Source of the DNA: Geothrix terrae
GTDB lineage: Bacteria; Acidobacteriota; Holophagae; Holophagales; Holophagaceae
NCBI RefSeq assembly: GCF_022808775.1
Contig: NZ_JAKZLA010000003.1
Location: forward strand, 434,001 to 498,000
DNA length: 64,000 nucleotides
Reading direction: 5' to 3'
This document shows positions 30,978 through 35,381 of this stretch, in pieces. The position numbers were made by a program, and so were the translations under genes. How positions within the stretch are numbered: position 1 is the stretch's first letter; the number at the start of each line of letters is the position of its first letter. The notes beneath the pieces are model-generated. The model made no database searches. It saw only the letters and a program-made list of their open reading frames with translations, and was not told the origin of the DNA.

Positions 30978-31352
30978 ATGCGCGCCATCTCCACGCCGAC
31001 CGCCCCCGCCGCCATCGGCCCCTACAGCCAGGCCCAGATCTCCGGCGGCCACCTGTTCACCTCCGGCCAGATCCCCCTCGTCCCGGAAACCATGGAGATG
31101 GTCACCGGCCCCATCGAGGCCCAGGCCGAACAGGTGCTGAAGAACCTCAGCGCCGTGCTCGCCGCCGCCAGCACCGGCTGGGACCGGGTGGTGAAGACCA
31201 CGGTCTTCCTCACGGACATGGGCGACTTCGCGGCCTTCAACGCCGCCTACGAGAAGGCCCTGGGCGCCGCCAAGCCCGCCCGCAGCACCGTGGCTGTGGC
31301 CGCGTTGCCCCGCGGCGCGAAGGTCGAGATCGAACTCATCGCCGAAGTGTAG
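30978..31352 (+). CDS. ridA: RidA family enamine/imine deaminase
   Basis: RidA hydrolyses reactive 2-aminoacrylate-type enamines released by PLP enzymes. The 124-residue protein has the full family pattern: APAAIGPYSQAQ, FTSGQIPL, NLSAVLAAAS, VVKTTVFLTDMGDF and RSTVAVAALPRGAKVEIE, where Arg102 matches the substrate-binding arginine. The start is supported by CCAGGAG five bases before ATG. The last ten codons and stop (31323-31352) are the first copy of a motif repeated three more times downstream at exact 158-bp steps. Confidence 0.95.
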   Translation: MRAISTPTAPAAIGPYSQAQISGGHLFTSGQIPLVPETMEMVTGPIEAQAEQVLKNLSAVLAAASTGWDRVVKTTVFLTDMGDFAAFNAAYEKALGAAKPARSTVAVAALPRGAKVEIELIAEV

Positions 31353-31826
31353 GCACGGTCTCTCCCTTGGCCGCTGGGCGCTCGGCTGCGCCTCGGCGCA
31401 CGCGGCCCTGGCAGCCCACGAACGCACAGGGCACCGCCCTGTGCTCCCACTCGCCTTCGGCTCGCGGAGTGGGGCCCCCGGTCGAGATCGAACTCATCGC
31501 CGAAGTGTAGGCACGGTCTCTCCCTTGGCCGCTGGGCGCTCGGCTGCGCCTCGGCGCACGCGGCCCTGGCAGCCCACGAACGCACAGGGCACCGCCCTCT
31601 GCCCCCACTCGCCTTCGGCTCGCGGAGTGGGGCCCCCGGTCGAGATCGAACTCATCGCCGAAGTGTAGGCACGGTCTCCCCCTTGGCCGCTGGGCGCTCG
31701 GCTGCGCCTCGGCGCACGCGGCCCTGGCAGCCCACGAACGCACAGGGCACCGCCCTCTGCTCCCACTCGCCTTCGGTTCGCGGAGTGGGACCCCCGGTCG
31801 AGGTCGAGCTGATCGCCGAAGTCTAG
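31323..31826 (+). repeat. 158-bp tandem array repeating the 3' end of ridA
   Basis: Starting points 31323, 31481, 31639 and 31797 are exactly 158 bp apart. Each unit is about 30 bp of ridA C-terminal codons (VEIELIAEV plus TAG) followed by about 128 bp of non-coding sequence; the fourth copy has only the 30-bp part and is the most diverged (GTCGAGGTCGAGCTGATC). The non-coding part holds hairpins, for example CCACTCGCC-TTC-GGC...GAGTGG. I see no gene in the 484 bp between ridA and the convergent LytTR gene, so the array fills it. Confidence 0.92.
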
Positions 31827-31836
31827 GGGCGTCTCA

Positions 31837-32547
31837 TCAGCCGAGCCCCAGCCTCACCTTGAGAACCGGGGCGGCGCCGCGGCTCACTTCCACCTCGATG
31901 CCCCCCGTCAACCGTACGAGGAGACGCCCGGAGTCGCCGACGCGGACGCCCACCACGGCCTCGGGCCGGATCAGCAGGTGGCGATGGCCGCGCACCACGC
32001 GGGTGCCCAGGGCCGCCTCCGCCTCGGCCAGGGTCTTCCAGGTGGTGCGCAGACGGTCCCCGGCAAAGGCCCACACGGCCTCGTCCTCGAACGTGAAGTG
32101 GGTGGTGCGGGCCAGGTCCACGAGCACCACGCCCCCGCTGGCCCGGACGGGCACGCGGAAGGGGCCCGGCGTCCGCGCGCCCTCCCGCTCGATCCGCGTC
32201 CGCAGCCGCTGGAGGGTCGCCGTCAGGCGCTCGGCGGTGACGGGCTTCAGCAGGTAGTCCGCGGCGGCCTGCTCGAAGGCCTTCACGGCGTGCTCCGCAT
32301 AGGCGGTCACGAACACCACGGGGATCTCCCGGGGCAGGTCCGCGGACACGTCCAGGCCCGTGAGACCGGGCATCTGGATGTCCAGGAAGAGGGCGTCCAC
32401 CGGCTCGCCCCGCCCCAGCCAGGCCAGTGCGGAGGGGCCGTCCTCCAGCGCGGCGACCACCTCGCAGCCCGCCTCCCGTAGCAGCCGGGTGAGGCGCCGC
32501 AGGTTGAAGGGCTCGTCCTCGGCCACGAGCACGCGCAGGGGCCTCAC
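31837..32547 (-). CDS. LytTR-family response regulator
   Basis: A 236-residue regulator with an N-terminal receiver (about 1-120): acidic pocket EDE at 10-12, phospho-acceptor Asp56 in LDIQMPG, and the switch Lys in LLKPV. The C-terminal LytTR DNA-binding domain (about 130-236) includes FTFEDEAVWAFAGDRLRTTWKTLAEAEAAL and FRVHRSHL-like VVRGHRHLLIRPEAV. The GTG start overlaps the TGA of the partner kinase (GTGA). It is the output of the CpxP-like/LytS operon; LytTR proteins usually bind paired direct repeats upstream of their targets. Confidence 0.93.
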   Translation of the reverse strand: MRPLRVLVAEDEPFNLRRLTRLLREAGCEVVAALEDGPSALAWLGRGEPVDALFLDIQMPGLTGLDVSADLPREIPVVFVTAYAEHAVKAFEQAAADYLLKPVTAERLTATLQRLRTRIEREGARTPGPFRVPVRASGGVVLVDLARTTHFTFEDEAVWAFAGDRLRTTWKTLAEAEAALGTRVVRGHRHLLIRPEAVVGVRVGDSGRLLVRLTGGIEVEVSRGAAPVLKVRLGLG

Positions 32548-33713
32548 GGCGCCACCTCCAGATCCAGCTCCGCCACCGTCCAGTCCCCCTCCCGCCGGAG
32601 CCGCAGGGCGTCGGCCCCGGCCCCCAGCAGGTCCAGGCGCTCCCGCAGGTTCGCGAGGCCGAGGCCCTTGCCGTTCCCCTCCGGGGCCGGTCCGGTGTTG
32701 GCCACGCGGATGTGGAGGCGGGTTCCCTCGCCGCGCACCACGACCTCCAGCTCGCCGCCCCCGACGGTCTTGGACACGCCGTGCTTGAGGGCGTTCTCCA
32801 CCAGGGGCTGGACCATCAGCGGCGGCACCTCCAGGTGATCCAGAGCCGAAGGCCAGTCCCAGCGTTCACGCAGGCGGCGGCCCAGGCGGATCCGCTCCAG
32901 GGCCAGGTGCCGCTCCACCAGACGGCGCTCGTCGCCCAGGGGCACGCGCAGGCGGGAGCCCTGGTCCAGCAGGGCGCGCAGCAGGTCCGACAGGTTGACC
33001 AGGGCGGCCTCGGCGGCCTCCGGATCCTCGCGCACCAGCTCGGTGAGGCCGCTGATGGCGTTGAAGAGCACGTGGGGGTTCATCTGGCCCTGGAGGGCCC
33101 GGGCCTGCGCCTCCTTCGCAGCGCGGCGGGCCGCCGCCTCCTGGAGCTCGGCCCGCTCGCGGTCCGCCAGCACCCAGCCCAGGAGCAGGCCGAAGCAGAG
33201 ATGGGCGACGCCGAGGGCCCAGAAGCGTGGCGGAACGGGCAGCCAGCGCGGCTCCGCCCCACGCCCCATCATGGGGCCGTTCATGCCCCCATGCCGGGGC
33301 CCGCCCCGCTCCATCATGCCCGTGCCGGGGCCCATGCCGGGATTTGGGCCAGGACCTAGGCCAGGGCCCGGTCCGGGGCCTCGTCCCATGGACCTGGGCC
33401 CCGCGCCGATGGCGCCCAGGGCCAGCAGGACCGCCAGCGTGAGCGCGGCCATCCAGGGCAGGGCCTGGACCCCTCCCCGGAACGTCCCCGCCATGGGCGC
33501 CTCGTCCCCGCTCCACTGCCAGGGCACCGGCGCCAGCACCAGGAACAGGACCACCCACAGGGAGGGCGCGAGCGCTTCCGCCAGATCCGGACCACCCCAG
33601 CCCATGGCCGCCCGCGTGCCGTTCCAGACGAGGCCGAACAGCAGCGCGGCGCCCCAGGTCCGGGGGCGCCGCGTCCGCTGCCAGGTGGCCTGGAAGACCG
33701 CAGAAGCGCGCAT
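32544..33713 (-). CDS. LytS-type sensor histidine kinase with Met/Gly/Pro-rich loop
   Basis: A 389-residue membrane kinase of the His_kinase (PF06580) type. Four hydrophobic segments lie at about 21-37, 51-66, 84-103 and 164-183. Between the third and fourth is a loop (about 105-160) made almost only of Gly, Pro, Met, Arg and His. The catalytic part has His214 in QMNPHVLFNAI, then LVENALKHG and KGLGLANLRERL. The loop resembles the C-terminal tail of the CpxP-like protein encoded 24 bp upstream, so both may sense the same thing, perhaps a metal. The partner regulator overlaps its stop. Confidence 0.92.
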   Translation of the reverse strand: MRASAVFQATWQRTRRPRTWGAALLFGLVWNGTRAAMGWGGPDLAEALAPSLWVVLFLVLAPVPWQWSGDEAPMAGTFRGGVQALPWMAALTLAVLLALGAIGAGPRSMGRGPGPGPGLGPGPNPGMGPGTGMMERGGPRHGGMNGPMMGRGAEPRWLPVPPRFWALGVAHLCFGLLLGWVLADRERAELQEAAARRAAKEAQARALQGQMNPHVLFNAISGLTELVREDPEAAEAALVNLSDLLRALLDQGSRLRVPLGDERRLVERHLALERIRLGRRLRERWDWPSALDHLEVPPLMVQPLVENALKHGVSKTVGGGELEVVVRGEGTRLHIRVANTGPAPEGNGKGLGLANLRERLDLLGAGADALRLRREGDWTVAELDLEVAP

Positions 33714-33737
33714 GGAGCTTCAGGATAATCGGTGGCG

Positions 33738-34265
33738 CTACTGGGCCATCGGGCAATCGGGGTTCATGCCGGGGCCGAAGCCGGGGCCCATGCCAGGACC
33801 AGCGCCGGGACCGCGGCCGTGGCGGGGCCCCATGCCCGCGCCGTGTCCCATGCCGGGACCCAGGGGCATCTTCTCGAACTGGGACTTCTGCTCGGGCGTC
33901 AGGAGCGGGACGATCTCCTGCCGGACGGCGCGATGCTCCAGCATCACGGCGAACTGGGCGGCGGAGGCCTTCTCATGCAGGGCCTGGAGGGTCTTGGCAT
34001 CGGTGGACGCGCTGGCCATGGCCTCCCGCAGGGCCCGGTGGGCCGTCTGGGCGGCTTCCACCTTGGCCTGGATGGCCACCTGGTGGCGCTCATGGATGGC
34101 CTTCACCTGGGTCTGCTGGGCCTCGGTGAGGTGGAGGCCCCTGAGGCCCCGGCCAGACGCGAAGCCGGGTCCGAAGCCAGGGCCCCGGTCCTGGGCGGCG
34201 AGGGAGACGCCGAGGACCAGCACGGCGGCGGCGAGCGCGGTGAATCGGAAGGGATGGGAGATCAT
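33738..34265 (-). CDS. Spy/CpxP-like periplasmic protein with Met/His/Gly-rich tail
   Basis: A 175-residue secreted helical protein. The signal peptide is about residues 1-24. Two LTxxQ motifs, LTEAQQ at 46-51 and LTPEQK at 122-127, bracket a helical region as in Spy and CpxP, which are periplasmic chaperones or repressors of envelope kinases. The tail from about residue 134 (GPGMGHGAGMGPRHGRGPG and onward to PDCPMAQ) is Met/His rich with a single Cys and could bind copper or another soft metal. I used ATG 34265 because the signal peptide begins there. It is the first gene of the operon with the LytS-type kinase and LytTR regulator. Confidence 0.85.
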   Translation of the reverse strand: MISHPFRFTALAAAVLVLGVSLAAQDRGPGFGPGFASGRGLRGLHLTEAQQTQVKAIHERHQVAIQAKVEAAQTAHRALREAMASASTDAKTLQALHEKASAAQFAVMLEHRAVRQEIVPLLTPEQKSQFEKMPLGPGMGHGAGMGPRHGRGPGAGPGMGPGFGPGMNPDCPMAQ

Positions 34266-34400
34266 GGGAAGCTCCTGGAGGGTCGGGGACGGATCATCCG
34301 TCCACACCAGGAGATGCCCCCCGCAGGGGAAAGGTGGAGCCCGGGTTGCGAACGGCAGAAGAAGGGGGCCGAATCGCAGCCGTGGGGGGTCGAACGGCGC

Positions 34401-35381
34401 TCAGTTGCTCCGCAGCCGCTTCCGGTAGAGCTGGGCGATCTCCGCGGGCAGCGGGTAGAGAGAGGCCTGCGTCACCGCCGTCTGGCCCTGGCGGGACAGG
34501 ATGAACTGCAGGAACTCCGAGAGGGCCGGCGCGAGGGCCTTGCCCGGAGCCCGGTTCAGGTAGAAGTAGTAGGTCCGGGACAGGGGGTACTTGCCCGACA
34601 CCACGTTCTCCTGGGTGGGCGGCACCGGGTCCTTGGCCTGCAGGGGCGTCACCGCCAGCGTCTTGTTCCGCGATAGCCAGTTGGAGAGCGTGGCGATCCC
34701 GAGGCCGTTGCCGTCGGTCATCACGGCCTCCGCGATGCTCGGCCAGTCCACCTCGTCATGCACGGTGGTCTTGTACTTGCCCTTCAGGAGCACCAGATCG
34801 CGGATGGCGGAACGCGAGGCCGTGCCTTCCGCCCGCATGTAGGGGTGGATGGGGCGCTTGGCGTAGTCGCCCCGGACGCCCAGGTCGCCCCAGGTGTCCA
34901 CGGCCGAGTCCTTGTGGTAGCCGGCGTTGCGGGTGGTGGAGAAGGCCGCGTCGAGCTGGTCCATCCCGATGTCCTTGATGGGATTGCCGGCGTTCACGAA
35001 GACGATGAAGGCGTCGTAGCAGACCACCAGCTTGGTGGGCGCGTAGCCGAACTTCTTCTCGAAGGCCTGGTGCTCCTCGAGGGTCAGCTCCCGGGCCATG
35101 TGGATCATGGGGACCGTGCCGTCCATCAGCGCCTTCACGGCGGCGGTGGACAGGCCGTTGACGACCCGGAACTGCGCCTGGGGCTGCACCGCCCGGAACC
35201 CGGTCTTCCACTCCTCCCAGACATCCGTCAGGGAGTCGGCCCCGATGCTTTCGATGGTCGCATTCACGTTCTGGGTCGCGACATAGGAGGGCAGGCCGGG
35301 ATCCAGCTTGGAGGCATGCTGGACCACGCCCTGGCCGAGAAGCAGGGTGCTGGTGGCGATGGCGAACAAGAATGGACGCAC
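34401..35381 (-). CDS. PstS-like substrate-binding protein (orphan)
   Basis: A 326-residue exported periplasmic binding protein of the phosphate-binding PstS/SphX type (PBP_like_2). It has a signal peptide at about 1-17, then ATIESIGADSLTDVWEEW, a NAGNPIKDIGMDQLDAAFS hinge segment and MRAEGTASRSAIRDLVLL, which matches the anion-binding turn region. The GTG start has a good AGGAG six bases upstream. No pstC, pstA, pstB or phoU gene is adjacent, so it may serve a remote transporter or act as an oxyanion scavenger. Two overlapping palindromes lie just upstream. Confidence 0.85.
   Translation of the reverse strand: MRPFLFAIATSTLLLGQGVVQHASKLDPGLPSYVATQNVNATIESIGADSLTDVWEEWKTGFRAVQPQAQFRVVNGLSTAAVKALMDGTVPMIHMARELTLEEHQAFEKKFGYAPTKLVVCYDAFIVFVNAGNPIKDIGMDQLDAAFSTTRNAGYHKDSAVDTWGDLGVRGDYAKRPIHPYMRAEGTASRSAIRDLVLLKGKYKTTVHDEVDWPSIAEAVMTDGNGLGIATLSNWLSRNKTLAVTPLQAKDPVPPTQENVVSGKYPLSRTYYFYLNRAPGKALAPALSEFLQFILSRQGQTAVTQASLYPLPAEIAQLYRKRLRSN

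Follow-up and report, generated by a model that had tools for sequence, protein, structure and literature searches.

The stretch of DNA analysed here, called the window below, comprises 64,000 nucleotides of Geothrix terrae (assembly GCF_022808775.1, contig NZ_JAKZLA010000003.1, positions 434,001 to 498,000). On its minus strand, from position 34265 to 31837, lies a three-gene operon for a Spy/CpxP-like protein, a membrane histidine kinase and a LytTR-type response regulator, and we considered how the first two proteins may be connected. The spy-like gene (33738..34265, minus strand) encodes a secreted protein of 175 amino acids with a signal peptide and the Spy/CpxP fold. After a gap of 24 bp it is followed by the kinase gene (32544..33713, minus strand), which encodes a PF06580 protein of 389 amino acids with four predicted transmembrane (TM) helices and whose stop codon is overlapped by 4 bp by the GTG start of the regulator gene (31837..32547, minus strand; Response_reg and LytTR domains). 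A preliminary description, made from the letters of the window alone, had proposed three coupled genes at this place, and all three are present there on the minus strand. The arrangement is also conserved. In a collection of one genome per species, the kinase has spy directly upstream at 27 of 29 loci, which is the genetic linkage with a kinase expected of a CpxP-type protein; the two exceptions are a contig that starts inside the kinase gene and a Spy-less paralogue. G. fermentans DSM 14018 is among the strains that carry the operon (locus L029).

The product of the first gene has the features of the Spy/CpxP (LTXXQ) family, namely two sequence motifs, an all-helical hairpin and secretion. 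Its Pfam matches to LTXXQ (PF07813, 5.2e-11) and Metal_resist (1.5e-9) both exceed the curated cut-offs, and the motifs themselves read LTEAQ and LTPEQ. An AlphaFold2 model built from an alignment predicts a helical hairpin core (helices 48-84 and 90-121) with confidence, at high predicted local distance difference test (pLDDT) values. The family profile of the protein matches solved Spy (1.3e-11) and CpxP (1.3e-8), and Foldseek paired the model with Spy, CpxP, CnrX and ZraP, albeit weakly (best E 6.6e-3 at a probability of 1.00, with none below 1e-3). Among the NCBIfam equivalog models Spy scored best, with 49.1 bits against a cut-off of 174, and the CpxP models scored lower. Therefore, the protein is a member of the family rather than an orthologue of either Spy or CpxP.

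The kinase matches the His_kinase family PF06580 at 6.1e-17, while its HATPase_c match (1.1e-4) is below the cut-off, and its H-box His214 and N-box Asn307 are invariant among 26 aligned kinases. In the regulator (Response_reg, 4.1e-23; LytTR, 1.3e-6), the usual set of receiver residues can be read from the sequence (Asp11, Asp56, Thr81 and Lys101), and the best NCBIfam match is the BtsR model at 1.2e-35, below its cut-off. The pair thus joins a PF06580 His_kinase catalytic part to a LytTR-domain regulator, as in LytS/LytTR systems. LytS-type kinases characteristically carry a 5TMR-LYT membrane domain (PMC10653868), and no Pfam match to this domain was found in the kinase at E values up to 1. 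The AlphaFold2 model instead has helices at residues 17-36, 44-60, 77-101 and 162-229, the last running into the catalytic part, with the membrane helices modelled at a pLDDT of only about 60-70; no solved structural relative of the membrane domain was found (best E 0.95). The preliminary description had called the kinase LytS-type. This is correct for the catalytic family but not for the membrane domain and, given the lack of a 5TMR-LYT match, the kinase is not a LytS in the strict sense, though it works with its regulator like a LytS/LytTR pair.

The two proteins upstream of the regulator share segments of unusual composition, as the preliminary description had noticed for the CpxP-like tail and a kinase loop, and both of these are indeed rich in Gly, Pro and Met. 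The C-terminal tail of the Spy-like protein, residues 134-175 (33741..33866, minus strand), reads PLGPGMGHGAGMGPRHGRGPGAGPGMGPGFGPGMNPDCPMAQ, and the loop between TM3 and TM4 of the kinase, residues 102-160 (33234..33410, minus strand), reads GPRSMGRGPGPGPGLGPGPNPGMGPGTGMMERGGPRHGGMNGPMMGRG. A further Gly/Pro-rich segment that had gone unmentioned, residues 26-42 of the Spy-like protein (34140..34190, minus strand), lies just past the signal peptide, where the stretch DRGPGFGPGF resembles the tail. The AlphaFold2 models predict both tail and loop to be disordered (pLDDT below 50 at residues 137-175 and 102-159, respectively), and pLDDT is likewise below 50 at residues 24-36 of the Spy-like protein. 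Four helices come before the catalytic domain, which has to lie in the cytoplasm, and by this topology argument the loop must be on the periplasmic side, to which the Spy-like protein is exported. The shared segments exceed chance locally. When the 49 longest non-overlapping open reading frames (ORFs) of the window (19,169 amino acids) were scanned for a 30-residue stretch with at least 60% Gly, Met and Pro and 3 Met, the one ORF with such a segment was an antisense reading of the same DNA. The spy and kinase genes, displaced from the ORF set by this antisense ORF, were scanned apart and both carry such a segment; the regulator does not.

The segments are also retained among relatives. All 26 cleaned pairs of the main clade keep both loop and tail, with a Gly, Met and Pro fraction of at least 0.4 in each, and so the absence of both, which the preliminary description had named as the result that would speak against it, did not occur. 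Outside the main clade the same fraction is reached in both segments of 13 of 22 pairs. Segment length and exact sequence vary strongly across relatives, and in several paired systems the segments are rich in Pro and poor in Met. In the genome of the window, the tail is present on the Spy beside this kinase and absent from the second Spy, a paralogue encoded on another contig (L159, 4983-5438). Such second paralogues (L159 and L160-L168) mostly lack a Gly/Met tail and often lie beside a gene of about 587 amino acids, whose product carries a transglutaminase-core domain in the one case examined (L160).

Since both segments bear Met and His, metal sensing was proposed at the outset. Cu(I)/Ag(I) or Zn ions would be the common target of the Met/His-rich tail and loop, with the kinase reporting the metal load, a scheme with which the Metal_resist match of the Spy-like protein, its similarity in fold to CnrX and ZraP, and the MxxM motifs in 15 of the 26 main-clade loops all agree. 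However, MxxM occurs in only 2 of the 26 tails, and only 14 of the 26 pairs have His in both segments. The Pro-rich paralogous pairs have little Met, and although His58, His61 and His97 of the Spy-like core are nearly invariant in the main clade, they are not kept in distant homologues. A Pfam scan of seven window neighbours found no metal-resistance family; six of the seven matched solute-binding, Hpt, dehydrogenase, SWIM, RidA-type or transglycosylase domains. The metal-sensing idea was therefore set aside as improbable, for want of shared ligand motifs, metal genes among these neighbours and conserved core ligands. The Met residues could alternatively be the target of reactive chlorine or oxygen species, whose oxidation of the Met-rich segments would switch the kinase on. 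Chlorite induces spy of E. coli about 30-fold, and the chaperone activity of Spy is disrupted when its Met residues are oxidized (PMC12503329). The presence of at least two Met in both segments of 24 of the 26 main-clade pairs fits this explanation, and it is a live alternative because E. coli Spy is a chlorite target. We nevertheless consider it very unlikely, given the scarcity of Met in the Pro-type paired systems and the anoxic lifestyle of Geothrix.

A connection between the two proteins might be expected to leave a trace in how their segments vary. We extracted 91 kinases with this membrane domain from the loci, 51 of which have a Spy gene within 4.5 kb, and compared 48 cleaned pairs (26 of the main clade and 22 others) by independent contrasts on a kinase-domain tree; the kinases and the orphan Spy genes are a selection of the profile matches. 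Left out beforehand were L016 (Spy cut by a contig end), L021 (motif not found) and L109 (a duplicate of L030), while L110 was kept although its Spy lacks the N-terminus at a contig start. After this phylogenetic correction, the kinase loop and the two Spy segments together co-vary in their content of Pro (r = 0.46, p = 0.001), His (r = 0.40, p = 0.002), Arg (r = 0.40, p = 0.004) and Gly (r = 0.30, p = 0.02), where P values are from permutation and uncorrected for 11 residue classes and several comparisons. For Met, the loop correlates with the Spy tail (r = 0.51, p = 0.0006) and shows no correlation with the N-terminal segment. The Spy core served as a control and was null for Pro, His, Arg and Gly. 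If only the main clade is considered, the correlation for His holds, as does that of Met with the tail. Five genomes have two cleaned pairs each, and in every one of them true partners lie nearer to each other in composition than swapped partners do, although three of these five belong to one genus and share duplications. The systems L099, whose Spy lies some 2 kb away, and L110 have no low-complexity tail on Spy and no such loop either. Loop and tail length do not co-vary after correction (r = 0.04).

These correlations have to be weighed against a rival explanation, in which the membrane helices of the kinase respond to some other signal, Spy is only an output, and loop and tail are unrelated flexible linkers drifting in a GC-rich, low-complexity way. 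BtsS, for example, binds pyruvate through residues of its TM helices (PMC10653868). A number of our own results favour this explanation and count against a link between the segments. Of 76 kinases that carry this membrane domain, 26 have no Spy nearby, a further nine Spy-less kinases close to contig ends having been left out of this comparison, and Spy-less paralogues also have long Pro-rich loops. A separate kinase tree omits L109, L151, L152, L155, L157, L158 and any kinase with a short catalytic part. Across the same 76 kinases, the phylogeny-corrected association of loop composition with Spy pairing is weak (Met, p = 0.13; Gly, p = 0.03; Gly, Met and Pro combined, p = 0.047). Tails rich in these three residues are found on 7 of 20 Spy proteins without this kinase nearby, compared to 35 of 48 paired ones. 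The Spy core control was not null for Met (r = 0.45), Cys (r = 0.63) or Arg+Lys (r = 0.24, p = 0.04), and there is a weak correlation of loop Met and loop Pro with the catalytic domain of the kinase as well (r = 0.25, p = 0.04 and r = 0.23, p = 0.05, respectively). In the main clade alone the Pro correlation is not significant (p = 0.07), and residue by residue a loop does not match its own partner better than others (median rank 12.5 of 26). On the other hand, drifting linkers would not readily account for the co-variation of Pro, His and Arg across lineages beyond phylogeny, for all of which the Spy core is null, or for the closer match of true partners in five of five two-system genomes. 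On balance, we regard this rival explanation as rather doubtful. The co-variation that the preliminary description had proposed to look for is thus present to a moderate degree in composition across systems, and absent at the level of single residues in the main clade. A fair reading of these sequences is that the segments match in general chemistry and not as lock and key.

Copying between tail and loop was also considered as a source of the resemblance and rejected, as there is no own-partner excess at the protein level in the main clade. At the DNA level the excess is small (p = 0.03), with one 28-bp imperfect repeat in the window pair. A crude search of the window's genome for GMGPG-like coding DNA gave four matches, one of them in spy, and was uninformative.

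Regulation of the operon is suggested by a direct-repeat array at 34348..34398 (minus strand), 83-133 bp upstream of the spy ATG, which consists of CTG(C/T)CATTCGA-like units with a 22-bp period. The array is common to spy upstream regions, including those of several distant genera of the family, at a near-constant distance from the start codon. We built a sequence-only model from 22 upstream elements and searched 47 genomes of the genus with it. Among the matches listed, 32 genomes have one below 1e-3, and in 31 of these 32 it lies just upstream of a spy gene; in the exception (G028) it is on a different contig from spy. By coordinate comparison, about a dozen of the matching genomes are outside the model and the rest match by construction. 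The stricter filters of the search lose weak matches, so that weak true targets can be missed. Seven weak matches were inspected, six of which fall inside long reading frames and one (L223) outside the frames listed; these weak matches were therefore treated as probable chance occurrences, and the idea of a regulon beyond the operon was rejected.

LytTR regulators mostly recognize two repeats of 9-11 nt with spacers of 11-13 nt and no common consensus, and the YpdB site is described as GGCATTTCAT occurring twice (PMC4847170). The spacing of the repeats upstream of spy fits LytTR sites, and their core bears a likeness to the YpdB site that is suggestive only; because LytTR sites share no common consensus, this likeness is weak evidence when taken alone and tempers the case for a LytTR operator. 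Nevertheless, the array is likely a binding site for the regulator. That 31 of 32 genomes have their strong match directly before spy, along with the fitting spacing, makes it probable that the operon is autoregulated and that the regulator has few other strong targets. Co-regulation of spy and the kinase gene is further suggested by the distance between them and by the repeats that precede spy. A promoter scan found nothing. Between the array and the spy start lies a near-palindrome, GGACGGATGATCCGTCC (34287-34303, minus strand), which is largely kept in Geothrix and possibly forms part of the promoter or the 5' leader.

The pairing of a CpxP-like protein with a LytS-type kinase had been called unusual, and within the phylum it is. 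The profile of the kinase membrane domain matched at least 39 of 396 phylum genomes, two of which, outside the family, were marginal (8e-4), and 69 of 77 Holophagaceae genomes at 1e-6; within the phylum sample, this membrane domain is nearly confined to Holophagaceae. A pattern search of all species genomes, which finds close relatives only, returned records titled Geothrix, Holophagaceae or Acidobacteria with the exception of L025, a full operon copy in a metagenome bin labelled Methylococcales. This copy closely matches those of Holophagaceae, suggesting a misplaced contig rather than a transfer. Spy-type proteins themselves are widespread in the phylum, with matches in 223 of 297 genomes. 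At the 30 best phylum Spy loci, inspected over about 1.5 kb on each side and including two from the window's genus, this kinase type is beside Spy in only one, which is from the genus. Twelve of the 30 have a receiver-domain gene beside Spy, and all eight regulators examined among these twelve are OmpR-type (Response_reg and Trans_reg_C), six of them from one family. It therefore looks as if the conserved pairing with LytTR signalling is a Holophagaceae rewiring of a Spy gene. No pairing of Spy or CpxP with LytTR or LytS was named in the titles or abstract openings of the literature searched. What is new here are the operator-like repeats, the family-confined membrane domain in contrast to the OmpR-type partners elsewhere, and the moderate compositional co-variation.

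The interpretation that we favour, with a probability of roughly 0.55, is an autoregulated three-component envelope-stress module, comparable to those of CpxP and ZraP but rewired to a LytTR system, in which the Spy-like protein probably reports to the kinase loop. In such a module, the Spy/CpxP-fold protein would be secreted to the periplasm, to which the four-TM kinase would expose a disordered loop of some 30-60 residues. Free Spy-like protein would keep the kinase quiet by docking on this loop via its disordered tail, its cradle or both, until it is drawn off under stress, by a load of unfolded envelope proteins or something similar. The kinase would then become active, the LytTR regulator would bind the direct repeats of 22-bp period upstream of spy and turn the operon on, and more Spy would be made until the load is met. 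Computation gave the genes and their order, the fold and the predicted disorder, the repeat element with its conservation and the co-variation in composition; binding by the regulator we infer, and the docking, its sign and the stimulus are modelled on CpxP-CpxA. The resembling disordered segments may be the route by which the Spy-like protein reports to the kinase. A bolder version, put forward only tentatively, is a lineage-specific three-component sensor of co-evolving disordered partners with no folded sensor domain, whose kinase would read chaperone occupancy via like-with-like low-complexity segments and whose LytTR regulator would act mainly on its own operon. A LytTR-linked module would in any case be a minimal system, with three genes, one main operator and a disordered loop replacing the sensor domain, for testing how chaperone load is read across a membrane. 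Since variants occur in nature whose segments are rich in Gly/Met or in Pro, or that lack low-complexity segments, swaps could test directly what the disordered segments do.

Several known systems share parts of this design. In the CpxP-CpxA-CpxR system of E. coli, a Spy-fold periplasmic protein is likewise tied to a membrane kinase; cpxP ranks with the Cpx genes of strongest induction, and its product holds CpxA in check, with misfolded proteins thought to titrate it away (PMC6737893). However, CpxA has a periplasmic sensing domain in place of the disordered loop seen here, and cpxP is transcribed divergently in E. coli whereas spy is the first gene of the operon described here. The regulators also differ, CpxR being OmpR-type and ours LytTR-type. 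ZraP-ZraS-ZraR of E. coli resembles the operon in having a Spy-superfamily chaperone and a regulator that directly controls little besides zraP, zraS and zraR, with mgtA as a further target (PMC7657598). ZraR, however, is sigma-54-dependent and zinc-responsive, while the regulator here is of the LytTR type and a role for metal has no support. The pyruvate-responsive systems BtsS/BtsR and YpdA/YpdB (PMC5552118) also combine a PF06580-type kinase with a LytTR regulator, and the direct-repeat site of YpdB is like that proposed here. The present kinase differs from LytS-type kinases in lacking a 5TMR-LYT match; it has four TM helices and is paired with Spy. To our knowledge, no periplasmic partner protein is known for BtsS/BtsR or YpdA/YpdB. 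CnrX and NccX have the same helical-hairpin fold, judging from the fold match, and are periplasmic partners of a membrane signalling protein. CnrX works with an extracytoplasmic function sigma/anti-sigma pair and binds Ni and Co via defined ligands, whereas no ligand set conserved into the distant homologues was seen in the Spy-like protein. Spy-fold accessory proteins occur with OmpR-type, NtrC-type and sigma-factor signalling and, if a LytTR-linked version truly exists, the chaperone and not the kinase class would be the constant part of such sensors.

Some kinases with this membrane domain have other neighbours. Three Spy-less kinases (L121, L122 and L128) have very long Pro-rich TM3-TM4 loops of about 150-170 residues, and no secreted neighbour of low complexity comparable to Spy turned up beside them in a crude scan. 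At all six readable loci of Spy-less kinases with RGG-type loops (L119, L120, L123, L127, L129 and L130), a small secreted protein rich in Arg, Gly and Gln is encoded upstream; operator-like matches precede its gene in L119 (E 0.017) and L120 (2.5e-4), and a DUF4405 protein is encoded nearby in L130 (by Pfam) and in L119, L120 and L126 (by sequence). The idea that the same compositional rule extends to non-Spy partners is not supported, as the mean composition distance is 0.49 to the own partner versus 0.43 to Spy segments, and it stands only as a lead. When loops were compared by class, the Pro class was closest to its own partners, and the main and Gly/Met classes were not strictly closest to theirs.

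Finally, a ridA-like gene adjoins the operon in 19 of the 24 loci examined, and this constant position indicates that the operon is an old chromosomal resident and not a recent import. In the window, the 3' end of this ridA-like gene (30978-31352) recurs in a tandem array of 3.2 copies of a 158-bp unit (31322-31827, 97% match), which extends into the gap between this gene and the convergent regulator gene. An antisense ORF of 477 amino acids (32995-34428, plus strand) is open across the kinase and spy genes, probably as an effect of the high GC content.

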